A stretch of DNA of 64,000 nt from Bythopirellula goksoeyrii (GTDB lineage Bacteria; Planctomycetota; Planctomycetia; Pirellulales; Lacipirellulaceae): positions 966,338-1,030,337 of the forward strand of contig NZ_CP042913.1 of the NCBI RefSeq assembly GCF_008065115.1. Direction: 5' to 3'. The notes below the pieces were generated by a model. The model was given only the letters and a program-made list of their open reading frames with translations, was not told the origin of the DNA and did no database searches. Shown piece after piece: positions 6,107 to 31,059 of this stretch (the stretch's first letter is position 1; the number at the start of each line of letters is the position of its first letter). A program made the position numbers and the translations under genes.

Positions 6107-9100
6107 ATTGCGCCTCCATAGACAGAGGCTTCCTAAAATCAGCAGCAACCCTCCTGTTGGCTCTGGCACGGACGTCGCCGCAGCCATCAGAGGATGGCTT
6201 CCGAATTGGCGTTGCCAGAGGAGGAAGTCGCGGCCGTCGGTGTCGTTATCCCCATCCGCATCGCCGAGTTGGTTGAGCCCGTAAGCTCCCTGCCAGATAC
6301 TGAGATCTGTGGCATCGACATCACCGTCGTGATCGAAATCGGCCGAGAAGAACGGCGTGCTCACGACCTGCAATTGGACTGCATTGGCGAGGTAGTTGAG
6401 ATGAAACGTAAGTCCCGCCGGCATTCCCGAGACGTCGATTTGGTTGAATGTGCCAAACACGCCCGACGAGGCAGTGAGAATGTTGAAAGTGTTGCCCATC
6501 GCGGGTATGTAGGGACCGTCGATATCGATATTGAGATAGCCATGGAGCAGCGCCTGACCTGTGACAGCCAAGCGGTCGAACTCATTGAGCAGAGTGCCCG
6601 TGAGTTCGACGAACAATTCACCGGACTGCATCTGTTGGTAGTCTTTCACCGTGGCAGCACCAACTGCGTCGAATCCTGCGACACGAATCGTCCCTTCATT
6701 GACGAGCAGAGTGTTGATGTTCGCGGAATTGTCGGGAATCAAATGGCTACCGTCCGGGATGATGATCGCTCCGGCACCGCTGAATGTGGCGCCGGCATTG
6801 ATGCGTATGTTGTTATTTTCCAACCGCAAATTGCCGGTGAGTGTCGAGGTGTTCGTTGGCTGGAATGTCAAAAAATTGTTGACCGCGACCTTGATCGTTG
6901 ATGCGGCCCCTCCACCGACCGTCATCGTACCGCCGAGGTCGGTGGAATTGGTCGATTCGTAGGTCCCGCCGCTGGAGAGTTGCAGGCTGGAGCCCGGGTT
7001 GAAGTCGAGTGCAAAACCGTTCGTATATGCGGTGTGACTGTTGCTCGCCTCGACCGTTCCGGTAAAGCCGAAGGTCGCGTTATCGCGGAGTTCGATGTTG
7101 GCGAGCACGGCGTGTATCTTTCCCGTATTGGTCGTGCCATCCCAGTCGTTGTCGTTCGCGGCGGTCTGAAAGATGAGCGAATCGGCGATCGAGGCAAAGA
7201 GTTGGGTGTTGTTTACCACTCGTGCTGTGACGAGTCCGTGTCCGCTGATGCCAGCGGTGACGTCGTTAGTGATCGCGCCGCCGCTCAGCACGCCGCCGCT
7301 GAGTTGCACGCCGGTGGAGACGTTATTGTTCCAGGCGTTGGTGACGTGCAGTGTGCCATCCACGTCGAACGTACCAATAGTTCCGACGTCAACAATCGCA
7401 CCGTTGACCGTGAGCGTACCGTTGTCGGCCAGGAGCGAGGCCGTGCCGTCGAAGTCGATCCCCGTGTTGATCGTGCCGAAGCCGCGCAACACTCGGCTCG
7501 TGTCGGCGCCCAGCAAACCGGCTCCGTTGATCGTGCCGCCCGCGATCGTATTGGGATCGCTGAAGAGGGTGCCCCCCGCCAGTTGCAGTGGCTCGTTGGA
7601 CGTATTGATATTCACGATTCCGGTCGAGCCGATATCGACTCTCGCTGTCGTCCGCACATCGCCAGTCACATTGACGATGCCGATGATGTTCACGTCGCTA
7701 CCGGCGAGCAGCGTCGCCTCGGTGTTGTCGTTCACCAGATTCATTACACCTGAGAAGTTGAGCGTCCACTCGTCGTTGGGGTCGTCGAGGTTTACCGTCA
7801 GCACGCCCGTGCCGGCGCCGTTGTTGATATCGAGCGTGCTGATCCCCCCGCCGCTGTTGACGCGGCCAAAGCTCGCCATCGTCGCCGCGTTGATAACGAG
7901 AGGTGCATCAATGTTGATGACATCTCCCGTGAGGTCGTTGCCATCGAGGTCAACCGTGCCTCCGACCATGTTGAGCGTAACCGCCTCGTTCACGTTGACG
8001 GCGCCGTTGAACTGAATCTGACCAGCGCCGGTGAAACTGGCATTGTTGACACCATTAACAGTATCGAAATTCACGGTCGTACTGGTGACAAACTGCAAGA
8101 CTGCGCCCAATGCGACATTCACTTTGGCATCGGAATTGAAGTCAATCTGGGCCCCGATCTGCGAGATGCCGATGCCGCTGATGTTGAGTTCGGCGTCCAG
8201 TACGCCGGAGTCGTTGCCAATATCGATCGCGACACCGCTATAGCTGGGAATTTCGGAATCGACGCGACTTAAGTTGAGGGTGCCATCCATCACGAATTCG
8301 GGGTCTGTGATGCTGAGCAGCAAGTCGCCGCCGTTGAGGGTGATCGAGCCGTCGTAGCGATTGGTCACGGCGTCGGGATCGTAATCGGTAGTCCCGATTT
8401 GCAAGAATCCGCCGGCGTTAACCGTGATTGCATTGGTCAACGCATTATTTCCATCGAGGTTGAAGTTGTTCAGAGAGATAGTCACGGCGCGTCCTGCTCC
8501 GACCGTGATGCTGGAGGAAGTCGTGGGCATCGTAATGTTGGCTAGTGCGGTAACAGTGGCGTTATTGTTAAAAATCAGGTGGCCATTGTTTATGAGTGTT
8601 CCACCGCTCATATTGAACACGCTGTTGAATTGCAGCGTACCATCGGCATCAACGACGTTGATCGTTCCCCCGGATTGCGTAAAGGCACCTCCACTGATGA
8701 AAGAAGTCCCTGCAGGAACATCGGGCGTGGGGATCGGATTGTCAATGAAGCCGTTATTTGCGTTGAGTGTCCCGCCTGCCAATGTCCAAGAACTCAACGA
8801 ATCAATGGTCGAGTTCTGAAACAGATTCATTGTTCCATTAAAGTTGTCGGTCAGCGGCACGTTCAGGTCAAGCGTCTGATTGCGGTTGATGTTGACGACG
8901 CCCGTTTCGCTCGCGCCGTCGAGATCGACCCGGCCGCCGAGGCTCGAATCGTTGATCTGCAGAGTGCCAACGGGGGGTGGATTAAAAATAATCGCCGCTC
9001 GCGAAAGAGCCGTCAGTGTGCCATCGTTGATCAGCAGTGGCGTCGCCAAGGCGGGGGTATCCGCAAACGTAATCGTGCCATGGCCAGCGAGTGTTCCCCC

Positions 9101-9562
9101 CGCGTTGATGTCCAGCAATGAAGTTCCCGACTCCTCATCGAGGATGAGCGTACCACCGGTCAGTTCGACAGTACCGCCGGAGTTGATCGTGATGTCGTCG
9201 GCATTCAGCGTCGAGGCACCGCCGCCGACGAATAGGTTCGTGCTATTGCCGGTGAGTTGCACCAGACCGTCGACAGTCAGGTTGAAGTTGTTGGTGAAGA
9301 GGTCGATGCCATTTGACATCGTGAGCGCCAGAATCGAGTTCGCCGATCCCAGGTTGACCGAGTTCGCCGTATTAAAGATTGCCTCGTCGTCCGAGTCCGG
9401 CTCATCGGCCGGATTCCAGTTGGCGGTCGAACCGTTGTCGACCCAATCGCTATTGCCACCGATCCAAGTCCGCGCCGCAGCGTTCGTAGTCTCCTGAATA
9501 ACCAACATGAGAATTGAAGAAAGCAGAACTAGGCGCAGAACGCCCCTAGAAGAAGCACCCAT
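6095..9562 (-). CDS. giant beta-helix PEP-CTERM protein with dockerin-like segment
   Basis: A 1155-residue secreted protein. It has an N-terminal signal ([22 protein letters not shown]), then [19 protein letters not shown], the opening typical of planctomycete autotransporter-like passengers. About 950 residues of Gly/Asn/Thr-rich strand repeats (GG.L...G.I.N.G.) should fold as a beta-helix. Near the C-terminus lies a dockerin-like segment ([13 protein letters not shown]...[21 protein letters not shown]), then the sorting tail [32 protein letters not shown] tails are recognised by exosortase, which is not encoded here. No outer-membrane barrel is present. The start has GGAGGGGAG just upstream. 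Role probably in matrix or adhesion (inference). Confidence 0.85.
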
Positions 9563-9720
9563 CGCAACTCCCCTCCCAACAAACCAATGATGAAAGTTTC
9601 CCAGACTGCTGCGGATTACAGTCGCTAGTGCGGTAAGGGAAGCTTGAGCAGGCAGCTGGGATTATACCTAGCAACTCAGAAGATCGCTACACTTTGCGCA
9701 ACGTCTTACTGCGAAAGCTA

Positions 9721-12700
9721 TTAGGAGCGAAGCTGGCAGGGCAAATGCCCCTCTTTAGACCTTTCCCTCGGACCACCTCTGCGACCTTCCGAACACAGAA
9801 TAAATGTGATTACGAGTAGACCAATGGCCGAAGGCTCTGGCACATTGCTCGGCGTGATCGAAGGGTTCAAGGAAAAAACCGTGCCAACTTGCCGCTGCCA
9901 GATGAGAAAGTCGTTGCCATCGACGTCGCCATCCAGATCTGCGTCTCCTTGTGCATGACTTACACCAACTGAACCGTAGTTGAAGCTCCAAGCAATGTAG
10001 TCGGCGATATCGACATCCAGGTCACCATCGAAGTCAGCATAGGCGGTTTGTAACAAGTCGACGGTAATATCGTTTGGGCCATAAGTGATGCCGAGGAATT
10101 CGACTCCCGAGCCGAGATAGTCTCCCGGAGCAGGAACAGTACTGAACAGCGAAGGAATTCCTCCCCCAGCACTGAGGATCACATGAGAACTCGTGCCCAG
10201 TGAATTAAAGGGAGTATGGACGTCGATCGTCAACGCACCACTCAGATTTGCATTGCCGCCGATATCGACAAAGTCGTTCGTGAAGGAGGTGCCATCAACA
10301 TCGATATTCAATTCATTTCCTAAACCCATATTCAGACTCCCCGTGATCTTGAGCGCCGCTGGAGTGGGAGTGCCGGGGTTGACGTTGTCGTTGGGAGCGA
10401 TTGCTCCGTTGAGAAAAGTTACGTCACCGGTCACTACCCCACGTCCCGTCATCAATTCGTTCACTAGTAGGATAGGCGCCTGAATTTCGCCATTTACTTC
10501 GAAGATATTCTGGACCTGGAATGGGGTAAGAATTTCAAGTTTCGCTCCAGTATCTACGCGAGTTCGGCCAAGTCCGCTAAGATTTTGAACGCTTACCGTT
10601 CCCGCCGTGATTCGAAGCCCCCCCGTAATGACATTATTGGTCACCGCAATCGAATTGCCACCGACCGTGTCGGTAAAGGGATCGATGCCTGAGCCATCCA
10701 CTTCCACGGTGCCGTCATCGATTTGTATCCCACCACTAATGTTCACAGTTGCGCCTGGTTGGGCGCTGAATCGTAGTGGTGCATTGCCAAGCTTTAGCAA
10801 GACACCTGTGATGTCGAAGGTACCGTTGGCGTCGAGTTCAACATTGAGTGAACCATCGCCCAAGGGGCTGAAGCCGCCGAATAGTATGACTTCCGCCACA
10901 CCAGGACCGCTCTGATCATTGACGAACAACGAATGCACACGCCCCGGCTGGTCCTGCTCTTTGATGAGGGTCGCATTGTTCTGGATCCGCAAGATGATAT
11001 CATCCGGAAAAGCGCGGGCTGCATCATCCGTGCCTGGAAGATTGCCGATGCGAACCGCACCTTCCATGATATTCAGATCACCGCGGCCATCGTAACGAGA
11101 ACCATGTGCGTCACCGCCACTTGAGTCGCCTCCTAACCAGAGAGTACCCCTGCCCACTTTGTCGACGCGCCCATAGATTTCGTTCGGATCGCTCGCACCA
11201 GCAATCTTGAGATCCGTGTTCGTGTCTACCGAGAGTTTAGTGGTCGTCCCAGGGCTTGCGCGCAAAACTCGAAATCCCGCGTTGTCGAAGTTGGTAGCAT
11301 TGCCAATGGCTGCTGATGATACATCGAGGCTCGTTGTGAGCCCTGTGAAAACTAAGGGTCCCATTTGCCAATTGAAAGGACCTGGCTCGTATTCGGGCAA
11401 TTGATGCAACTGAACGTCACCCTGTGCAATGCGTAGTCCCCAGAGATTTTCCTGACCTAGCGGGGACCATGGCAGCAAGGGATTGAACTCCAGTCGGCCA
11501 GCTCCCTGCTTCGTCAAGGTTCCCTGTGGAGCGTCAGCGGTACTCATGTTCCCTTCAAAGATGACCGATTGGCCACTGAGCACCTCAATTCCCGCATTTG
11601 CGAATTGAAACGTATCGTGGAGATCGATGTTGTTGAGAATGTTCGTAGAAGAGGTGATCCGCAAAGTGGCCTGATCGGAAATATTCAGCGGTCCGGTTCC
11701 AAGTTGATTCGAATCGCTGATTTGCAAAATACTGCGGCCGACTACAGCGGTTCCGCCCGAGTGTAAATTGGGACGAGTCAGTTCAACGAACGCTTGATCG
11801 GTCGTGATCAGTACGACAGGATTGCCATTCGGATCGAGACCGTCATCGATGACAAACGTGGGATCCTGAGTGATCACGTTGGTTCCCCCTAGGGCAAACA
11901 GGTTCGACATCGGAGAGCCTCCGTCAAAACCACTGGCATCGAACGTTGTGTTCCCCAACGATCCCGTGAGCGTCGGTAAAAAAGAGATCACATGTGGCGT
12001 CGAGAACCCCAAGGCCCCACCAAAGAGTTGCGGACGTGAACCTGCATATGCGCCTATGAATGCTGGATTCAGCACCAGGGTACCGTGTTGGTAGTTTCCA
12101 CCCTGGTACTGAGAATTCGTGGCCACAATATCCAAAGCCGTTGCCGAGCCTACAGCTTGAGGATGCTCGAGCCACAACTGCTCCTGCTCCACTAGCACGG
12201 GACCAGTAAAAGTATTGATGTTGTTCAGTACAATCGAGCCCGTGTTTAGTCCAAATGGGAACTGAAGAGTCCTGAGCATGAAGAATGCTGTTGACGCACC
12301 ACTGATGGTTGAGTCCGTGAGCATCGTGTCAATTTCTAGTCGGCCTGTTCCTCCCATGAAGTAGGCTGGGAATCCTCCACCGGTATCAAAAGGCACGACA
12401 GGTGTTCCTGCTGCGATGCTGGCTAGACTAGGACTTCCCAGGCGATAGGAATTTGGCACCCCGTTGTTGAAATTGAGATCGATCGGCAAGGAGTAACCCG
12501 GCACGTTGTCGATGGCCAGTCCGGTCTCGCCCGGGTTAACGATACTTGGATCGACAGTAACTGCAGGGTCGAGTGTCGGATTGTACAACGGGCTGGTTGT
12601 TCCTATGGTGGCAAAGTGATGAAGGGTGACCTGTCCGGGAGGGCCACCAAACGGGCTCCCGACACTCAACGTTCCTCCGAAGACTTGGACTCCTCCTGAA

Positions 12701-19893: not shown

Positions 19894-20029
19894 GAAAGCG
19901 TAGCTCCTAATAGAAAACGTCAGTTGGTTCTTCTCGCCAGAGGCGTATAATGGGTGGTTCGCTATTTCCTGCCATGTGACTTACTGAGTCGCGGCTGAAG
20001 CCCCACCCTTGAATTTGCCACACGGACGT

Positions 20030-23000
20030 ATGCCCGCCTCAGATATCATCATCAAAGGTGCCCGCGAACACAACCTCCGCGGCGTCGACCTCTCACTTCC
20101 CCGCAACAAACTCATCTGCCTCACAGGCGTGAGTGGCAGCGGGAAAAGTTCCCTTGCCTTCGACACACTTTATGCTGAAGGACAGCGGCGCTATGTCGAG
20201 AGTCTCTCGACGTTTGCCAGGCAATTCCTGGGCCAAATGCCCAAGCCCGAGGTGGACCACATCAGTGGCCTGAGTCCGTCGATCTCGATCGCCCAAAAGG
20301 CGGCTGGCAACAATCCGCGATCGACCGTGGGAACAATCACCGAAATCTACGATTTTCTGCGGGTACTCTACGCTCGTGTTGGACAGGGGCACTGCCCTCA
20401 GTGCCAACGACCGATCACGGCGCAATCCCGCGAAGAAATCATTGCTCGCATTCAATCGCTCCCCGCTAAGGCAGATTTCATGGTGCTGGCCCCCGTTGTG
20501 CGAGGGCAAAAGGGAGAATTTCGCGACCTGTTTGAAGATCTGCTCAAGAAAGGATTCGTCCGCGCACGTGTCGATGGCCAGGTGGTACAACTCTCAGATA
20601 ATCTCTCGCTCGACCGTCAAATGCGGCACGACATTGAGGTGGTGATCGATCGGCTCGTGAACGGACCGTCGATCCGCACTCGATTGGGTGAAGCGGTGGA
20701 CTTTGCTCTCAAACTGGGCGAGGGAACTCTGATTATCGCCGCGGAAGAGGACAGTGCCGCTGAAGCGGCACCGCCGTCGAAGTCTAGTAAAAAGGCTAAG
20801 CGAGGGACCGGCGTCCAAACAGGCGACATGGTTGTTTCGGCGGACTATGCCTGCAACTACTGCGGATTGAGTTTTCAGCCCCCCTCGCCGCAAATGTTCA
20901 GCTTCAACAGTCCGCGAGGAATGTGCCTCGAGTGTGATGGTCTGGGGACGATGTTCAGCTTCGATCCCGAGAAGCTGGTCCCCGATCCGACTAAATCGCT
21001 CTCCCAAGGGTGCATCGAATTGATCGGCCCCTGGAAAGACCTTGGGCGGTGGAAGCGTCACATCTACAAGGGTGTCGCCGACACGATGGAGCGCAAACTT
21101 GAACTGCCCGAAGGGTCACTTACCGACACTCCTTGGCAAGAAATGACCGAAGAGTTTCGATACCTCTGGCTCTGGGGCACCGGCGAAGAGCACATTACCT
21201 ACACTTGGCGTGCCGGCAAGAATTCCCAGAAGTATGGTGGCACGTTCGACGGGATAATTCCTGAGCTATTGGAAAAGTATCGCGGCGCCAAAAGCAAAAC
21301 GCTCATTGCCAAACTCGAAGAGTTTATGAACGTGATCCGTTGCCCCGACTGCCTTGGCGAGAGACTCAATCCCCAGGCGTCGGCAGTGACGCTCACTACG
21401 GCACACCCGAAGTTCGCTGACAAGCCGCAAGGAACCCTTCCTGTTGTCTGCTCGCTTCCGATCGATGAAGCGAAGGAGTTTTTCAGCGGTCTGGTGCTCG
21501 ACGAAACCCAACAGAAAATCGCCAGCGAAGTGCTCAAAGAGATTCGCGGTCGTTTGGGGTTCCTCACGAATGTGGGGCTCGATTATCTGTCGCTGGGACG
21601 CACTGCTCCCACGCTTTCAGGTGGCGAGACCCAGCGAATTCGCCTCGCCGGGCAAATTGGCTGCGGACTGGTTGGGGTGCTCTACATTCTCGACGAACCC
21701 TCGATTGGTCTGCATCCTCGTGACAATGAACGGCTCCTTTCGACCCTCGAACAACTTCGAGATCAGGGCAATACGGTCGTTGTGGTCGAGCATGATGAAG
21801 ACACCATGCGGGCCGCCGACCTGGTGGTCGACTTCGGCCCCGGTGCAGGAGTGCGCGGCGGGGAACTCATGGCAGTCGGCACGGCTGACGAAGTGGCGAA
21901 AAACAAGAAGAGCGTGACGGGAGCCTATCTGTCTGGAAGTCGAAAGATTGAAGTACCGCAGCAAAGGAGGATCGATGCCCTGCCAGAGTCGAAACTCATC
22001 ATCCATGGTGCGCGACACAACAATCTGAAGAACGTCACCATGGAAATCCCCTTGGGGGCGTTTGTGTGTGTGACGGGTGCAAGTGGCAGCGGCAAGAGCT
22101 CGCTGGTAAGCGACATTCTGGTCGAAGCCCTCCGCCGTGATCTCAACGGCGGCAACGGCGAACCGGGCGAACACGACCGCATTGAAGGGCTCGAACATCT
22201 CGACAAGATGATTGCCATCGACCAGTCTCCGATCGGCCGCACCCCGCGATCGAATCCAGCGACCTACATCAAAGTGTTTGACGAGATTCGCAAGCTTTAC
22301 ACCCAGCTTCCCGAGGCGAAGCGGCGAGGATACAAGCCGGGGCGGTTCAGTTTCAATGTAACCGGCGGTCGATGTGAGGCATGCAGTGGCAACGGCTCGA
22401 ACAAACTGGAAATGGATTTTCTCGCCGACGTGTGGATCACCTGCAATGTGTGTCAGGGGCACCGTTTCAATCACGAGTCCTTACAGATTCGTTACAAAGA
22501 AAAATCTATTGCCGACGTACTGGAAATGGACGTGCAGCAGGCGCTCGATCATTTCGAAAATATCCCATTGATCCGCAACAAGCTAGAAACTTTACATGCG
22601 GTGGGGCTTGATTATCTCAAGCTGGGGCAACCCTCTCCCACGCTTTCCGGCGGTGAGGCCCAGCGGATCAAGCTCGCCCGTGAATTGGTGAAGAAGTCAA
22701 CTGGCCGCACACTCTATCTACTTGACGAACCCACGACCGGCCTGCACTTTGCCGATATTGAGCTTCTGCTCAAAGTTCTGCACGAATTCGTCGACGCTGG
22801 AAACACGGTATTGGTCGTCGAGCACAATCTTGACGTAGTGAAAACCGCCGATTGGGTCATCGACGTCGGCCCCGACGGTGGTAAACACGGCGGCGAAATC
22901 ATCGCCACCGGCACCCCTGAGCAAATCGTTGGAATGCGGAATGCGGAATGCGGAATGCGGAATAAAAAAAACAATTCCGCGTTCGTTTCCCCTACCGCAC

Positions 23001-26000
23001 TCGCGCTCGCCCCCTACCTCAACGGCAAGTCCCGCAGCAAACCCAAATCCGCCACCCGCGAAACCGTCAAACAAGCCACTCACATCACCGTGGAAGGCGC
23101 CAGCGAACACAATCTCCGCGATGTGAGCGTGAAAATCCCTCGGGATGAGTTTACCGTCTTCTGCGGCCCGAGCGGCAGCGGCAAGAGCTCGCTCGCCATG
23201 GATACGATTTACGCTGAAGGCCAGCGGCGCTACGTGGAGAGCCTGAGTTCCTACGCCCGCCAGTTCGTCGGCCAACTGCAAAAACCGCGTGTCGAGTCGA
23301 TCGAGGGCTTGTCCCCTGCGATAGCCATCGAACAACGCACAACGGGCCACTCTCCTCGCTCGACTGTCGGAACCGTCACGGAGATTTACGACTACTTCCG
23401 GATATTGATGTCGCGGTTGGGACAAATGTACTGCCCCGATTGCGATGTCCCGGTCGGCACTCAGAGTGTCGATGAAGTAATCGAATCCCTGCTTGCCGAA
23501 CCGGAAGGAACGAAGCTCTACCTGATGGCCCCCGTGGAACTCGCCGCCGGGCAAAAGTATGAGGAACTCTGGCAATCCCTTCGTTCGAGCGGGTTCTTGC
23601 GTGTACGAATCGACGACAAGACCGTCGAATTGGAGTCCGTACCCGAGATCGATCGCCGGCGTAAGCATAAGATCGAAGTGATTGCAGACCGTGTGACAAT
23701 TCGTCGCGACAACCGGAGTCGTCTGGCGGAAAGCGTCGAGAGTGCTCTTTCCTTGGGTCGAGGCGTGATGGTCACCGTCGTGGTCGAGGAGGACCTCCCG
23801 GAAGCGCGTTGGCGAACCAAGGTTCATAGCCAACACCGTTCCTGTGGAAAGTGCGGACGGAGTTTTGAAGCACTTTCGCCTCATCACTTTTCGTTCAACA
23901 ACACGCTCGGTTGGTGCGGAGCTTGTGAGGGCTTGGGAACCGAGATCGGTGCCAATCCGGCCGCTCTTTTGCGCAGCACCCAACTCACACTCGCCGAAGG
24001 AGCCATCTTGGCGTGGCCAGGGGTCGAACAACCACTGTTCGCCGCGATGCTCGCCGCGCTGTCGGACCATACGGGACTTCCCACCGATGTTCCATTTGAA
24101 CAACTCTCTCCGCGGCATCGCCGCATCGTGCTCTACGGCACGGGAGATGATTGGATCCAATGTGACCACAAAGCCGCGACCGCTGGTCGCGCCAATGGAA
24201 AAAACAAAAAGGAACGCGACCAGCGGTCGCGGCTCTATGGGGCATTCCTATTCCAATACAAAGGTCTCTATCCTGCGCTGGAGGAGGCATCGCGGATGTC
24301 CCCGCGCCTCAGAGCGCAGCTCGATCATCTTGTCGACGAAATCGAATGCAGCGAGTGCGGTGGGAGTCGTTTGCGCGATGATGCCTCATCCGTTAAGTTT
24401 CAAGGCCGCACAATCGGCGAGTATTGCCGACTGCCACTGGGACGCTTGCTTCCCGAAATCGAGGCGTGGACACTCACGGCGAGTCAGCAAAAAGTTGCCG
24501 GCGAGTTGGTCCGAGAGATCAGCAATCGGCTCACCTTCCTACTGGAAGTGGGTCTGGAGTATCTCACGATTGGCCGTTCGGCACCGACACTCTCCGGTGG
24601 CGAGTCGCAGCGAATTCGCTTGGCAAGCCAAGTGGGGAGCGGCCTGTGCGGAGTACTTTACGTACTCGACGAACCCACAGTCGGGCTGCATCCACGCGAT
24701 AACACCCGACTAATCTCTGCGCTGCACAAACTCCGCGATCTGGGCAACACGCTATTGGTCGTGGAACACGACCGCGACGTGGTCGAGAGTGCCAATCAGC
24801 TGCTGGATTTCGGTCCCGCCGCAGGGCGACTCGGTGGCGAAGTGGTGGCGCGAGGCACTCCCGCCGAGGTTGCCAAGCGACGTGGCTCCGTGACGGGTCC
24901 GTACTTGTCGGGAAAGAAGGCGATCCCCGTACCGACTAATCGACGTTTGGATTCCGGGCCGCTGAAGCGGCCTCGGCCAAAGAAGAAAAAGACGGCCGAG
25001 CCCGCTTCAGCGGGCCGGTCTTCAGCGCAGTCAACCACATTACGCGTCCAAGGCGCCCGCCACAACAACCTCAAGAACATCACCGTCGACTTCCCTCTCG
25101 GCACACTCACCGCCGTCACCGGCGTGAGTGGAAGCGGCAAGAGTTCGCTCGTCGAAGACGTGCTTTACAATCAACTCGCCAAGACACTTCATCGAGCCGG
25201 CACCAATCCCGGCGGGCATGACCGCATCGTAGGCATCCAAAATATCGACAAAGTCATCCGCGTCGATCAACGAGCACTGGGCAACTCGCCCTCGTCCAAT
25301 CCGGCCACGTACACGGGCGTGTTCGAGTTGATCCGAAACCTGTTCGCCCAGCTGCCCGAGGCGAAACTGCGGGGTTATTCGGCCCGCCGCTTTAGCTTCA
25401 ATGTCCCTGGCGGCCGCTGCGATGCCTGTGAAGGTGCCGGGCAACGGTGCATCGAGATGCACTTCCTACCCGACGTGTGGGTCGATTGCGAGGTGTGCCA
25501 TGGTAAGCGGTTCAATCCTGATACCCTCAACGTGCAATATCGCGGCCGATCCATCGCCGACGTTTTAGAGATGTCGTGCGGTGAGGCGTTGGAACTTTTT
25601 GAAAATATCCCAAAGATCCGTCGTACTTTGCAAACCTTGTGCGATGTGGGGCTCGACTATGTAGCACTCGGCCAGAGCGCTGCAACGCTATCGGGAGGGG
25701 AGGCCCAGCGAGTGAAACTCGCCGCAGAATTGTCTCGCCCCGATACCGGCCGGACTCTGTACATTCTCGACGAACCTACCACAGGCTTGCACTTCGACGA
25801 CATCGCCAAACTTCTCGATGTACTTCATCGTCTGGTCGATCTTGGCAACACAGTTCTCGTCATCGAACACAACCTCGACGTGATCAAGCAAGCCGACTGG
25901 ATTATCGACATCGGCCCCGAAGCTGGCGCCGAAGGAGGCCAAGTCGTCGTCACCGGCACCCCCGAGCAGATCATCGAGACGGCCGAGACCGCTTCAGCGG

Positions 26001-27136
26001 CCCGGAAGACCCCGCCGATGGTTTCCCACACCGCCACCGCCCTCGCCCCCGTCCTCGCCGCTGGCCCCCACAAAAAACGCAAGCCCTTCAACTTCGAAAC
26101 TCTAAACGAACAGCGTGAAGGGGACGTCGAAATCAATGACCTCGGCGGTTCGATCAAAATGCCCTGGGAAGTTGATGGTCGCCGTTGGCACACTCGCGAT
26201 CGCGTAAGCCGCAGTGGGGCACCGTGTCACTGGGATGGCAAGATACTCGACCGCGTCGAACGCCGCATCCAAGAGCTTGGCGACTTTGCCTCGACGAACT
26301 GGAACACACGCACCATCGTCGAGATCGCCACGGCGAAGAAATCCGAGGGTTGGTTTTTCCATGCGATCACGGGCGAACCATGGCTGTTGAAAATGAAATT
26401 CCGCACTGCCAAAAAGACTTTCCAGCGAGACGAGCTGGCAGTCGCACTCGATTTGAAGCCGCTCAACGATATCCCCGAGATCGAATCGTATGGACGTACG
26501 CCTCGGGTAAAATGTAAAAACCTGCGAGCACCGTTTCAAGAAGTGGAAATCCGGGCGTTCAGTTGGGAGGAAATTGACACACCCGAGTTTTGGAAGTTCC
26601 TCGAGCAGGCGGTCTCTGGGTTTCGCAAATTATCTGAGCGCACTCCCCAAGATCCCGAAGACGTGATGCCCTGGAAGGTCCTAGGCCGCAAGTGGCACTT
26701 GGCCCGCAAGGGATTCCCACCCGGCAAGAAACCCGCCTGGAATCTCGAAGTCCTTGAAGAACTCCTGGAATTACTTGGCGAAGTCGCCAGTGAAGCCGCA
26801 GGTGAGGATAATCCTTCCCAACCCCAATTCCTCTGGAACAACCAGCAAGTCATCAACGTGATGGTCCCCCAGCAACGTCAACCATGGGCCACGATCTACA
26901 CCAAGCAACTCGCCGGAGTCGATCTGGTGCTCAACGGTCCAACGGGTGCATTCACTACCGACCGCATCGCCGACCTTGCCGCCAACCGCGCCATCAAATC
27001 GAGTGAGAACGAACTCGACCAGGTGAAGCTCCGCTTCATCACCGGAGAGGATCTCCTCAACGGCGACCTGCCCGAATTCTTGACAGAGCATCTGGCAGCG
27101 GTTGCCGGGACCTCAGAAAGTATTGCTGCGAATTGA
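20030..27136 (+). CDS. uvrA: doubled UvrA excinuclease subunit with extra C-terminal domain
   Basis: UvrA finds bulky DNA lesions and loads UvrB. This protein is about 2368 residues from ATG 20030 (a TTG at 20009 is possible), about 2.5 times a normal UvrA, because two whole UvrA units are fused. Unit 1 (residues 1-970) has Walker A at 33 and 683 and ABC signatures at 529 ([13 protein letters not shown]) and 872. Unit 2 (about 1010-1975) has Walker A at 1046 and 1698 and signatures at 1521 and 1887. Zinc-binding CxxC pairs (CNYC/CLEC, CEAC/CNVC, CGKC/CGAC, CDAC/CEVC) look intact in both, so neither half is obviously dead. A tail from about 2015 contains two copies of an unrecognised module, at 2044 ([11 protein letters not shown]) and 2213 ([11 protein letters not shown]). 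Linkers contain palindromic and tandem repeats. UvrB and UvrC are not here. Confidence 0.93.
20754..20771. repeat. 18-bp palindrome inside uvrA (GCTGAAGC core)
   Basis: GTGCCGCT-GA-AGCGGCAC is symmetrical except for the two central bases. It encodes part of [18 protein letters not shown], a low-complexity insertion in UvrA unit 1 just before the zinc-binding CNYC. The core recurs at 24956-25016, 25981-26003 and in gyrA at 61423-61440. Confidence 0.6.
22931..22963. repeat. 7-bp tandem repeat (GGAATGC)x4.7 inside uvrA
   Basis: Four full copies of GGAATGC plus GGAAT lie in the linker between the two UvrA units, encoding [13 protein letters not shown] matching inverted piece ATTCCGC at 22974-22980 can pair with the last copy across an A-rich loop. 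Seven is not a multiple of three, so gain or loss of a single copy would break the frame. Confidence 0.85.
24172..24234. repeat. 20-bp perfect inverted repeat inside uvrA
   Basis: Arms 24172-24191 and 24215-24234 are exact reverse complements (core CGCGACCAGCGGTCGCG), separated by 23 A-rich bases. The element encodes [21 protein letters not shown], an insertion in UvrA unit 2. Each arm also contains its own smaller palindrome. Confidence 0.85.
24956..25016. repeat. 23-bp inverted repeat inside uvrA (GCTGAAGC core)
   Basis: Arms 24956-24978 and 24994-25016 pair at 21 of 23 positions. Each arm contains a CCGCTGAAGCGG-type palindrome. The element encodes the linker [23 protein letters not shown] between the two ABC halves of UvrA unit 2. 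A third related arm lies at 25981-26003 in the linker before the C-terminal tail, encoding AETASAARK. Confidence 0.8.
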
Positions 27137-27154: not shown

Positions 27155-28303
27155 CTACGCGCCCAATTCCAGATTAGGTTCAGCGGAAACGTTGTCATTC
27201 TCCCGCGCTCGCCTCCACAGGGTGCCTAGTACCTCGTGTAATGACTCGGCCTGGCAGTGACGATAGGGAGAATCCGCTGGCAGGTCGCGGATCAAGCGGC
27301 GATGGGCTTCAGCCAACGCGTGATAAGGCATCGTCGGAAAAATATGGTGCAATGCGTGATATCGCAAACCGATCGGTGCCCACAAACCGCCGGTGAAGGG
27401 ATGCTTGGGGTAATTCACCGAGTCGAGCATTTGCTCAACAAATGTCATCTCGTGCTCTCCCAAATGAGTCCAGCGATGGGCACCCAAAGTACGCAGCGCG
27501 TTAATTGCTAAGACGAACACACCCGTGAGATAAGCATGAAGCAGGAATGACGGCGGCAACGTCTCTTCGAACAATAGACCACCGGCCCATACCATCCGCA
27601 CTGCCACCAGCCAGATAAACAGAAACACCAAAACTTCTTGAAAACGAATCGTCCGCAGTGTCTTATTCGTCGGCAGTGGGCGAATATACGTGGGATCCAT
27701 GATCATGGAAGACGCGTGGCGATGGACCCATTTTCGCAAAGTGGGGCTGATCCAGGTCAGCGGAGTCAGCACCCCAAAACGAAAAACGGCTACCACGGGA
27801 ATGACAAAAATCTGCGAGAGGTAGAAGAGAATCTGCCAGGCTGGCAAGCGGGCAAGCGGAATGTATTCGCCGTCTTCTTTCGTGCCATAGTGCTTGCGGC
27901 GATGGTGATCGAGGTGGGTGTAGTACACAAATGTCGGAATTAGAAACGGGATTCCGCACAGCAGGTTCCACACAAAGCGAAACGCTGTGAATTCCCCCGC
28001 TCGAATATGCACCAACTCATGAATGAATAGCGAGCATCGGTAGATCAATAGCGAGGAGATCACAAAGGCCACGATACGCACAGGCCAATGCCAGGCAACG
28101 TTTGTGGTGATCAGTTCAGGAAAATCGACCACTTGAAAGCTGGCCATTGCCACGATCCAGCTCACGAGAAAGTCGGGCCAGTAGATCCAAGGATTCGGCG
28201 TGAAGTACTCGCCAACAATGCGGCGGGCCTCAGAGAGCGAGAATTCGCCCGAATGGTGCTCGGTATCGGCAGTGATAGCAGTTGAGTCAATTGCTTGCGA
28301 CAT
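27155..28303 (-). CDS. membrane fatty acid desaturase
   Basis: A 382-residue di-iron membrane enzyme that puts a double bond into fatty acyl chains using O2 and electrons. The His boxes are HELVH, HLDHHRRKH, and HALHH with the later AEAH, in family order, between membrane segments. It is convergent with uvrA (18 bases apart) and divergent from a ketoacyl-synthase homologue 340 bases away, giving a loose lipid context. The substrate (acyl-lipid, acyl-CoA or a carotenoid-like chain) cannot be told. Confidence 0.9.
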   Translation of the reverse strand: MSQAIDSTAITADTEHHSGEFSLSEARRIVGEYFTPNPWIYWPDFLVSWIVAMASFQVVDFPELITTNVAWHWPVRIVAFVISSLLIYRCSLFIHELVHIRAGEFTAFRFVWNLLCGIPFLIPTFVYYTHLDHHRRKHYGTKEDGEYIPLARLPAWQILFYLSQIFVIPVVAVFRFGVLTPLTWISPTLRKWVHRHASSMIMDPTYIRPLPTNKTLRTIRFQEVLVFLFIWLVAVRMVWAGGLLFEETLPPSFLLHAYLTGVFVLAINALRTLGAHRWTHLGEHEMTFVEQMLDSVNYPKHPFTGGLWAPIGLRYHALHHIFPTMPYHALAEAHRRLIRDLPADSPYRHCQAESLHEVLGTLWRRARENDNVSAEPNLELGA

Positions 28304-28644: not shown

Positions 28645-29886
28645 GTGCAAGAAGTTGTCATCACGGGAATGGGAATTGTCTGCCCGCTGGGGATCGGCTC
28701 AGAGGCCGTGTGGTCGGCGATAGAGAACCGCGAGAGTGGCATACGGACTGTCCCCCGGTTGGTAGAAGCCGGCTTCCCGATAACCATTGGAGGAGAGGTT
28801 CCCGACTTTGACGGCAAACAGTATGTGAAGCCCCGCAAAAGCCTCAAAGTGATGTGCCGTGAGACCCAATTGGCTTTTACCGCCGCTGAGCTTGCATGGG
28901 CAGATGCCAAGCTCGACGAAGCTAAGATCGACTCGGAACGATTGGGTGTCGTCTTGGGTTCAAGTGTCTTCCGCTCTGAATTGCCTGACCTTACAGCCCT
29001 TTACCAAGAAGCAAGTAACAACGGTAAGTTTGACTTCACACGATGGGACTCGGCCATAAAACAGCTCTATCCCCTATGGATGCTGAAATACTTGCCAAAC
29101 ATGGCGTCTTGTCATGTTGGCATTGCCAAAGACGCTCGCGGTCCAAACAACACTATCGTCGAGGGAGACGTTTCGTCGCTGCTGGCGATCATCGAAGCTG
29201 CTGATACCATTGCGCGCGGACATGCCGATGTGATGCTGACTGGAGCAACCGGCTCGCTATTAGCTTGGGTCGACGTCTGTTGGCACGGTGGGGCGCGCAT
29301 GACTCGCAATGACAACCCTGATGCTGCCAGTCGTCCTTTTGACTCAGCCCGCGATGGTTTTGTGATGAGCGAAGGGTCCGCAGTCTTGGTGCTCGAAAGT
29401 CTGGCCCACGCTGAGCAACGCGGTGCTAAGATTCTCGGTCGTATTTTGGGCTACGGTCGCCGGGCAGAAGCAGTACCCCGCGGCAAGCTACCTACCGGGC
29501 AGTCGATTCGTCAGTCAATCCGGGCGGCACTTGAGATGGGACATGTCTCGCCAGACGAGGTTGGCCATGTCAACGCCCACGGACTCAGCACGATTGAAGA
29601 CGATGCTATAGAAGCCGAGGCTATCCAAGCGGAACTAAAGGATGTAAGTGTAACCGCGCCCAAGAGTTTTGTTGGCAACAGCGGGGCCTCGGGAGGTGCC
29701 ATTGAACTGGCAATCAGCCTATTAGGACTCCAGAAGAATCTCATTCCGCCAACGCTGAACTGTGACGACCCCACGGCAGGATTGAATGTGGCGTGCTCTG
29801 CTCAATTGCCCAAGTCGGCAACTATGTTGGCACTCAATCACAAACTCACGGGGCAAGCTGTCTCGTTGTTGGTAGGCGGAGCTTAA
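28645..29886 (+). CDS. beta-ketoacyl-ACP synthase homologue lacking catalytic Cys
   Basis: A thiolase-fold protein of 413 residues with normal FabF length and architecture (VVITGMGIVCPLG at the start, VNAHGLSTIEDDAIEAEA, GNSGASGGAIELA). GTG 28645 is the likely start. In FabF the nucleophile lies in STACATS; here the aligned segment is IVEGDVSS, placing Asp where Cys should be. The first active-site His is kept (VNAHG) but the second position is Asn (KSFVGN). It therefore cannot do ordinary Claisen condensation. Chain-length-factor-like or decarboxylase-like partners of true synthases show similar loss. The role here is unknown. Confidence 0.82.
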   Translation: MQEVVITGMGIVCPLGIGSEAVWSAIENRESGIRTVPRLVEAGFPITIGGEVPDFDGKQYVKPRKSLKVMCRETQLAFTAAELAWADAKLDEAKIDSERLGVVLGSSVFRSELPDLTALYQEASNNGKFDFTRWDSAIKQLYPLWMLKYLPNMASCHVGIAKDARGPNNTIVEGDVSSLLAIIEAADTIARGHADVMLTGATGSLLAWVDVCWHGGARMTRNDNPDAASRPFDSARDGFVMSEGSAVLVLESLAHAEQRGAKILGRILGYGRRAEAVPRGKLPTGQSIRQSIRAALEMGHVSPDEVGHVNAHGLSTIEDDAIEAEAIQAELKDVSVTAPKSFVGNSGASGGAIELAISLLGLQKNLIPPTLNCDDPTAGLNVACSAQLPKSATMLALNHKLTGQAVSLLVGGA

Positions 29887-29920: not shown

Positions 29921-29982
29921 CAGCCGTCGGCGGAAACCCGCGGTTAGCCCCCGATCAAACCGCAGGCTTCCGCCAGCGGCTA
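29921..29982. repeat. inverted repeat overlapping 3' end of metalloprotease gene
   Basis: Arms 29921-29945 and 29957-29982 are imperfect reverse complements on the GGCGGAAGCCTGCGGTTT consensus, the same family as 1504-1565. The right arm lies in the coding end of the minus-strand metalloprotease and supplies its last codons (SRWRKPAV and stop). It may serve as a bidirectional terminator between the two convergent genes. Confidence 0.7.
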
Positions 29983-30935
29983 GTAAGGAGAGATGCGAAT
30001 ACGGCCCCAAGCATCAGATATGTTGCTGTCTCAGGTACTGCATGGTTGGTTGCTGTAAGAGCCATTCCGGTTCCGTAACCTCTCTGCCATGAAAAGAAAT
30101 CGGATCCGTCGCTATCACCATCGCCATCGGCATCTCCGCTGGCGCTGACTGCATAGGCACCTCGCCAGAGCGTCAAATCCGCCTCATTGACCATACCATC
30201 TCCAGAGAAATCGCCCATGGGAGGAGCTTCTTGGAGGAAGAAAGTGCTTATCGCAAAAACATCGTTGATTTGCTGTTGGGTCATCTGATCGCTCGTACCG
30301 CCAGGACTCATCAGGTTGGGGATTTTCGAGGGCGTATGGCTCAACCCCAGATTGTGTCCAATCTCGTGGGCTATCACCCCGGCTACCTGATCGCGACCAT
30401 TCTGCGTGGACAACTTGGAACTTCCTATGTAGGCGGCGATTCCATTTCCTCCTACGTACCCGATGCCAGCGACATAACTTGAACCGAGCTTCTTGAAACC
30501 GGGGGCGACTTCTACAAAGAACAAATTGATAACCCGATAGTCAACATGTAGTTTTCCCGCCGTCCCTGCATAGTTAACGATCTGGGCGAGGTCTGCCTGC
30601 GGACGCACTACGTCAGGAGACAAGAGGCCTTGATAAGCAAAGCTGCTGGCATACTGGGTAACACTTGGCAAGAAGCGAATGTCGATACCCGCTTGAGCCC
30701 AGATCGAGTCGACCCCGGCTTCGATACTCGCGCGCTGCTCGGCAGTGCCAAATGCAGTCGCGGTTTGTGACCCATCGGTAAGCGAAGTCTGAATAAGCTG
30801 CACTTCAACCCGGTGGGTGATGGGGAGCGGTGGATCAACGATCAGTGTCGCATGTACTGTGTTCGACCAAGCGCAGACGCTCAGCAGCGCCAGTACATGC
30901 GCAATCTGCGCATGGCGGCAGGAACGTTTCGACAT
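29955..30935 (-). CDS. secreted matrixin-like metalloprotease with dockerin-like and PEP-CTERM-like tail
   Basis: A zinc peptidase of 326 residues from ATG 30935, which has GAGG upstream; the frame opens at 30968. After the signal peptide the catalytic motif is AHEIGHNLGLSH (HExxHxxGxxH), followed by the Met-turn NLMSPGG, as in metzincins. Then comes a dockerin-like segment (GDFSGDGMVNEADLTLW...DADGDGDSDGSDFFSWQRGYG) and VPETATYLMLGAVFASLLTSRWRKPAV, a PEP-CTERM variant with VPET instead of VPEP. The final basic residues are encoded by a dispersed repeat. Confidence 0.83.
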   Translation of the reverse strand: MSKRSCRHAQIAHVLALLSVCAWSNTVHATLIVDPPLPITHRVEVQLIQTSLTDGSQTATAFGTAEQRASIEAGVDSIWAQAGIDIRFLPSVTQYASSFAYQGLLSPDVVRPQADLAQIVNYAGTAGKLHVDYRVINLFFVEVAPGFKKLGSSYVAGIGYVGGNGIAAYIGSSKLSTQNGRDQVAGVIAHEIGHNLGLSHTPSKIPNLMSPGGTSDQMTQQQINDVFAISTFFLQEAPPMGDFSGDGMVNEADLTLWRGAYAVSASGDADGDGDSDGSDFFSWQRGYGTGMALTATNHAVPETATYLMLGAVFASLLTSRWRKPAV

Positions 30936-31059
30936 GGAGAGCCTCTCCTCAAAGTTTGCGGCTTGCAAAACACTGCGTTCCGGGGCAGTGCGACGGACAA
31001 GATGACTCGATTATTCCAAAATAGTAGGGAGACTGCAAGTTTTGTTCTCGCAGGCAATG

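Follow-up and report, generated by a model that had tools for sequence, protein, structure and literature searches.

A ketosynthase-like gene with aspartate in place of the catalytic cysteine, adjacent to a membrane desaturase gene, in Bythopirellula goksoeyrii

Genes at the locus

The DNA analyzed was a stretch of 64,000 nucleotides from Bythopirellula goksoeyrii (contig NZ_CP042913.1, positions 966,338 to 1,030,337), referred to as the window. It contains a gene encoding a ketosynthase (KS)-like protein without the catalytic cysteine and, next to it, a gene encoding a membrane fatty-acid desaturase (Table 1). The stretch between their start codons presumably holds both promoters. No other match to this kind of desaturase turned up in the genome, and comparison with solved structures gave no match for the protein. 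On the plus strand, a 2375-amino acid frame (20009-27136) contains stretches of the UvrA interaction domain and of the UvrA DNA-binding domain, two of each, and is thus a head-to-tail fusion of two UvrA copies; long frames related to it lie near the desaturase in two other loci (L048, L049). The frame at 29955-30968 on the minus strand encodes a reprolysin-like metallopeptidase, with what we take to be dockerin-type repeats and a PEP-CTERM-like tail.

Table 1. Coordinates of the KS-like gene, its active-site codons and the adjacent features in the window
Feature	Coordinates	Strand	Remark
Membrane fatty-acid desaturase (PF00487)	27155..28303	-	head to head with KS-like gene
Intergenic stretch between divergent start codons	28304..28644	.	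341 bases
Cysteine-less ketosynthase-like gene (KS-beta-like)	28645..29886	+	413 amino acids, GTG start
Asp175 codon, catalytic Cys position	29167..29169	+	alignment to KAS II
His312 codon, counterpart of first active-site His (NAHG)	29578..29580	+
Lys340 codon, counterpart of active-site Lys (PKS)	29662..29664	+
Asn345 codon (GN), counterpart of second active-site His	29677..29679	+
Loop 398-404, NHKLTGQ, replacing the FGFGG gating loop	29836..29856	+

Active-site positions of the KS-like protein

The start residue of the KS-like protein matches that of its two nearest named relatives, and residues 3-256 match the N-terminal and residues 267-373 the C-terminal ketoacyl-synt domain of Pfam. 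In phmmer alignments to the solved KAS II chains 1j3n and 4ls5, D175 fell on the catalytic cysteine column in a gap-free vicinity, and the KAS II alignment placed N345 at the position of the second histidine. A reading made beforehand from the sequence alone had proposed that aspartate replaces the cysteine, that the second active-site histidine is asparagine and that the first histidine is retained (H312, in NAHG); all three assignments held. Another cysteine at the nucleophile position would have spoken against that reading, and none was seen by sequence alignment, the nearest cysteines being C156 and C212. An alignment slip at Asp175 was ruled out by the gap-free KAS II alignment and by the lack of any other nearby cysteine.

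Compared with the FabF/KAS II enzymes, the protein scored 280.7 bits against the FabF model TIGR03150 (cut-off 493.75), has Asp175 instead of the catalytic cysteine and, of the two histidines and lysine, keeps His312 and Lys340, with Asn345 at the second histidine. Like the KS-beta subunits or chain-length factors (CLFs), with which the sequence-only reading had rightly compared it, it combines a KS signature (both Pfam domains) with the loss of the nucleophile; classical CLFs carry glutamine at this site, where the window protein has aspartate. KS-Q malonyl decarboxylases combine glutamine with both histidines, and here Asp175 and Asn345 stand in their places. Cysteine-less KS folds with glutamine do decarboxylate, and with His312 and Lys340 present the window protein might make starter units from malonyl-ACP as KS-Q domains do. 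We consider this highly improbable: the residue is acidic, not glutamine, and the second histidine, which is required for decarboxylation in active KSs according to the portions of PMC2649909 used here, is missing from the window protein and present in 40 of 134 distinct cysteine-less genes.

The nucleophile site in relatives and phylogeny

The closest named relative found was that of Bythopirellula polymerisocia Pla144 (86% identity); among the matches listed, relatives in the window's order were 39 to 86% identical and stop-free. When KS genes were recounted by tblastn across every fetched locus, 197 were obtained; two short ones were set aside, and 173 were distinct, 134 without and 39 with the cysteine. 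At the nucleophile site, the 134 cysteine-less genes have Glu (70), Asp (59), Ser (2), Asn (2) or Gly (1). The first histidine is kept in 112 and the lysine in 124, and the second-histidine position is Asn in 80 and His in 40, making the acid, with Asp and Glu pooled, the most constant of the four active-site positions. Cys, His, Lys and His are all present in 39/39 genes with the cysteine. Since an acid occurs in 129 of the 134 and the listed matches at 39-86% identity are stop-free, loss of the cysteine is more than chance. Conservation of the aspartate among orthologs, which the earlier reading had proposed to check, thus extends to Asp or Glu; its description of aspartate together with the His-to-Asn change as unusual does not hold within planctomycetes, given these counts and the Asp and Glu published for Rhodopirellula baltica in 2009 (PMC2649909).

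The FGG loop is retained in 5/134 cysteine-less genes (L166, L171, L172, L173, L174), all in tandem loci outside the window's class, and the gating loop varies in 5/39 genes with the cysteine. As L166 has the FGFGG loop and no cysteine, loop and cysteine were not lost together. Two relatives of family f15 (L057, 8651-9913; L117, 8049-9311) have Ser aligned at the nucleophile site with both histidines and the lysine kept; the alignment is unsure there because an Asp lies one residue ahead of the Ser.

In a tree of 100 rows, 92 cysteine-less rows formed one clade (SH-aLRT 99), with 15 state changes at the site. A second tree of 132 rows, to which sequences of other families were added, was built by a quick method with LG+G4 and without bootstrap, and two long branches meet in its outgroup; its 105 cysteine-less rows also formed one clade (99), with five cysteine-bearing upstream sequences of family f34 as sister (99). 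The KS-beta clade (110 rows, SH-aLRT 99) stands beside a KS-alpha clade of 15 rows (SH-aLRT 98) that joins the downstream cysteine-bearing synthases of the tandem loci with a synthase of the window's own genome (L005); the downstream gene of L165 is absent from the tree. Of the 134 distinct cysteine-less genes, 105 entered the trees and 29 did not, genes overlapped by longer antisense frames having been missed in gene calling.

With gaps set aside, 22 columns were at frequency 1.00 in the 105 aligned cysteine-less rows. P143, L144, L147, L150, P151 and N152 are at this frequency and variable in KS-alpha; in FabF, this stretch belongs to the dimer interface and acyl pocket. The loss of catalytic residues might point to a decaying gene without function, and we regard this as almost certainly wrong: the window gene and, among the matches listed, its relatives are stop-free, these columns are invariant and gene order is conserved. 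The pseudogene reading is contradicted by this conservation.

Tandem pairs outside the window's class

Of 216 genomes sampled from the phylum and searched, 26 matched at 1e-62 or better; the 13 of these outside the window's class were all fetched. The counts that follow could shift with matches from other genomes that were weaker or went unscored. All eight cysteine-less loci found outside the class, from six families, have the cysteine-less gene first and a cysteine-bearing synthase downstream, no more than about 60 bp away in seven; in L169 a small ORF lies between. In family f34 a tandem KS pair is present in 5/5 loci and the upstream synthase bears the cysteine. The layout outside the class is that of a KS-beta/KS-alpha (chain-length-factor) pair, and family f34, with the cysteine in both partners, may represent a stage before its loss. 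Hotdog and acyl carrier protein (ACP) matches precede the pair in five of the eight cysteine-less loci, the same five that retain the FGG loop, and, more weakly, in the five f34 loci; L166 and L174 additionally have an SDR reductase, and the KS pairs of L168, L169 and L170 are without hotdog or ACP matches. The hotdog/ACP/KS cluster was checked with Pfam on L041, L172, L166 and L174.

Gene neighborhood within the window's order

In the window's order, 89 loci were examined, 88 of them with a window-type gene scoring at least 250 bits; some genomes gave two loci. These are best matches, non-random and not independent of each other, and because many contigs are short the neighbor counts are lower bounds. 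At least 27/88 loci, from nine families, have a related desaturase gene on the upstream side, arranged head to head (match-to-match gaps 134-656 bp, divergent in 27/27), so the nearby desaturase pointed out in the sequence-only reading recurs across families. A GNAT acyltransferase gene lies upstream on the same strand in at least 15 loci (15/15), and an epimerase-like gene is divergent in at least 10 (10/10). KS-alpha at 260 bits or more was found within 9.5 kb of the window-type gene in 0/88 loci. On the question raised in the sequence-only reading, whether an intact synthase is the usual neighbor, the loci are divided: one is present in 13/13 genomes found and fetched outside the class (eight cysteine-less pairs and five with both cysteines), and none adjoins the gene in the window or, as KS-alpha at this score, in the 88 loci of the order. 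Looser linkage does occur: a genome of the same genus (G131) has the KS-alpha cluster and the KS-beta/desaturase pair within ~15 kb (L180), and two f18 genomes have a second KS-alpha 7-9 kb from the window-type gene (L178, L179).

The best GNAT and epimerase matches in the window's own genome adjoin each other, far from the window. Two such pairs were seen away from it (L150, 8586-10959; L151, 8670-10810), and no serine palmitoyltransferase was recognized by eye beside the pairs in these two stretches. The GNAT protein had no match below E 0.1 among solved structures (best 0.16). Fifteen listed of its 44 plasmid homologs are named hypothetical protein, dATP pyrophosphohydrolase or GNAT, names that leave its role unsettled.

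Other ketosynthases of the genome and co-occurrence

Six sites in the window's own genome accounted for the seven KS matches found there, namely the window gene, a Glu paralog (C1:5324590), three cysteine-bearing synthases and a large PKS-like frame of 3736 amino acids that contains two of the matches. One of the synthases lies in a run read by eye as fabD-fabG-acp-fabF (L040); the FabF of this genome is at C1:5291877-5293094. Another, the KS-alpha (L005/L041; G000 C1:6323486-6324757), follows two FabA-like hotdog genes and an ACP gene identified with Pfam; the same order hotdog-ACP-hotdog-KS-alpha, without a beta gene, occurs in G017 (L175). The Glu paralog (L004) is a second cysteine-less protein, with Glu at the nucleophile site. 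Its gene (L039 = G000 C1:5316000-5334000, 8567-9877) stands directly before nusA (Pfam) and an infB-like frame (by eye). Eleven Glu-type loci of the order were fetched with flanks; nusA was matched in six and a fabF-type gene in four.

The four with the fabF-type gene (L124, L129, L130, L138) have it within ~5.5 kb of the Glu paralog and on the same strand. This arrangement, and the occurrence of window-type genes in genomes without KS-alpha, would agree with the cysteine-less protein being a CLF-like subunit that pairs with the housekeeping FabF instead of KS-alpha and tunes ordinary fatty acid synthesis. We consider such a pairing unlikely for the window gene, because the linkage to fabF concerns its Glu paralog and the sister group of the cysteine-less clade is KS-alpha rather than FabF.

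Co-occurrence was scored across 146 genomes at lines set by us (window-type gene 1e-90, KS-alpha 1e-150, Glu paralog 1e-100, desaturase 1e-50). KS-alpha at its line or better was present in 138 genomes, the Glu paralog in 136 and the desaturase in 81. A window-type match better than its line was absent from 25, of which 22 have KS-alpha and 23 the Glu paralog; some absences may reflect assembly gaps or diverged copies, L132 (G060) being inside the clade though below the line. At 1e-60, 145/146 genomes match the window gene, which is not a count of cysteine-less genes because matches of similar strength include cysteine-bearing synthases (L159, L163, L165, L167, L175). Eight genomes are without KS-alpha, and five of these have a window-type match (G011, G030, G037, G052 and G085, with G037 73% and G085 62% complete). 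Because the window copy and KS-alpha each occur without the other in some genomes, they are not obligate partners; neither is the desaturase, considering its presence in 81/146 genomes and beside the gene in 27/88 loci. By this pattern, the window gene appears to be a specialized copy, independent of KS-alpha in some genomes.

A protein that is unlinked from KS-alpha, linked to lipid genes and present in five of the eight genomes without KS-alpha might also work alone. As a stand-alone homodimer it could bind acyl-ACP and use Asp/Glu as a general base, with His312 and Lys340, for a non-condensing step, for example an acyl transfer, that feeds the desaturase and the GNAT acyltransferase. The near-constant acid, the frequent retention of the lysine and the first histidine, and the 15 state changes at the site are consistent with this. 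However, the histidine is lost in 22/134 and the lysine in 10/134 genes, with the acid mostly retained (L080, L084 and L092, for instance, have Asp together with a Thr replacing Lys), the gating loop is replaced, and no KS-fold enzyme with this catalytic set was found in the literature searched, which was mostly without subscription journals. We hold the stand-alone enzyme to be possible and rather doubtful. Also rather doubtful, and offered tentatively, is the idea that this carboxylate-bearing pseudo-ketosynthase, freed from its synthase partner, is an acyl-ACP docking or handover factor for the membrane desaturase and the GNAT acyltransferase. If so, a KS fold would present chains rather than build them, as part of a so far undescribed lipid pathway of planctomycetes.

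Proposed function

The reading that we prefer, with confidence about evenly balanced, is that the window protein belongs, as a non-catalytic subunit resembling KS-beta (chain-length factor), to a planctomycete type II synthase of fatty acids or polyketides, and that it acts in trans. Duplication of a synthase gene would have produced two copies in tandem. The upstream one would have lost its cysteine, once on the 132-row tree, with a carboxylate becoming fixed where the nucleophile had been, and the downstream one would have stayed the condensing enzyme (KS-alpha). In the window's class, the cysteine-less copy would then have left the operon and given several paralogs, one of which, the window copy, became linked to the membrane desaturase and, in some families, also to the GNAT acyltransferase and epimerase-like genes.

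On the basis of the protein's sequence, its clade, the tandem ancestry of that clade and the conserved gene order, we infer that it forms a dimer and may pair in trans with an intact KS, shape a shared acyl pocket and dock the acyl carrier protein. Such a pairing would set which chain is made or passed to the desaturase, the window copy probably being specialized for one lipid. The carboxylate might hold the dead site in shape, possibly locked with Lys340 and His312.

Evidence for a subunit of this kind comes from the sister clades of KS-alpha and KS-beta, the tandem order in 8/8 cysteine-less loci and the 5/5 pairs of f34, the own-genome KS-alpha cluster that is without a beta gene, the invariant positions from P143 to N152, the ~15 kb linkage in L180 and the known KS-CLF polyene sets. 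Against it, the near-constant acid seems more than a dead scaffold needs, the glutamine of the classical type is absent, neither KS-alpha nor the desaturase is obligate, and L166 keeps its FGFGG loop.

The tandem ancestry, the family with both cysteines and the desaturase linkage make the questions of the KS partner and of the lipid directly testable. If the pairing in trans is true, CLF-like subunits with an acid for glutamine are widespread in the lipid synthesis of a whole bacterial order.

Comparison with known systems

The Asp/Glu substitution at the nucleophile site is not new. It was published in 2009 for two FabF paralogs of R. baltica in which Cys163 is replaced, by Asp163 in RB3714 and by Glu163 in RB4527; a different substrate and function were suggested for such paralogs (Rattray et al., 2009, PMC2649909, as excerpted). 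RB4527 shares His298, Lys328 and Asn333 with the pattern of the own-genome Glu paralog; placement of both proteins in the present clades is a guess from the residues of Table 2 of that paper. Unlike the loci described here, the two genes are given no function, pairing with a cysteine-bearing synthase or desaturase linkage in the excerpts of that paper. In the literature searched, mostly without subscription journals, no function for the R. baltica cysteine-less paralogs since 2009 was found, nor a paper on KS pairing or desaturase linkage of the cysteine-less gene. What is new is the origin of the cysteine-less copy, its tandem ancestry, and its gene context.

Five loci, with two FabA-like hotdog genes, ACP, KS-beta and KS-alpha, two of them also with an SDR reductase, resemble the highly reducing type II PKSs and the aryl polyene pair ApeO-ApeC, as far as these are covered in the excerpts of PMC10698177 and PMC8358021. 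Polyenes are known to be made by KS-CLF together with KR and DH (PMC10698177, in part), and KS-CLF systems are also treated in the excerpts of PMC7949117 and PMC10132072. The window contains no highly reducing type II PKS gene set (KS-CLF, KR, DH, ACP).

In cispentacin biosynthesis, AmcF-AmcG combines an active KS with a KS-like partner that is without functional motifs and without some of the secondary structures of CLFs, according to the passages used of PMC10698177; the window protein scored 126.9 bits against the AmcF model (cut-off 325). The GNAT-fold and NAD-dependent epimerase-like genes of some families form a pair similar in kind to the bacterial ceramide genes cerS (N-acyltransferase) and cerR as given in parts of PMC11324152 and PMC11334938. 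The likeness is one of gene type, and a ceramide pathway is on this account a tentative lead.

A further likeness, in layout, lies outside the window's class. As in type II PKSs with KS-beta/CLF, a cysteine-less KS homolog lies there beside an intact KS and belongs to a clade sister to that KS. The planctomycete proteins differ in having Asp/Glu instead of Gln, the window gene is without an adjacent KS, and the heterodimer is putative here. In classical type II PKS clusters KS-alpha comes first, whereas in the planctomycete tandems beta precedes alpha.
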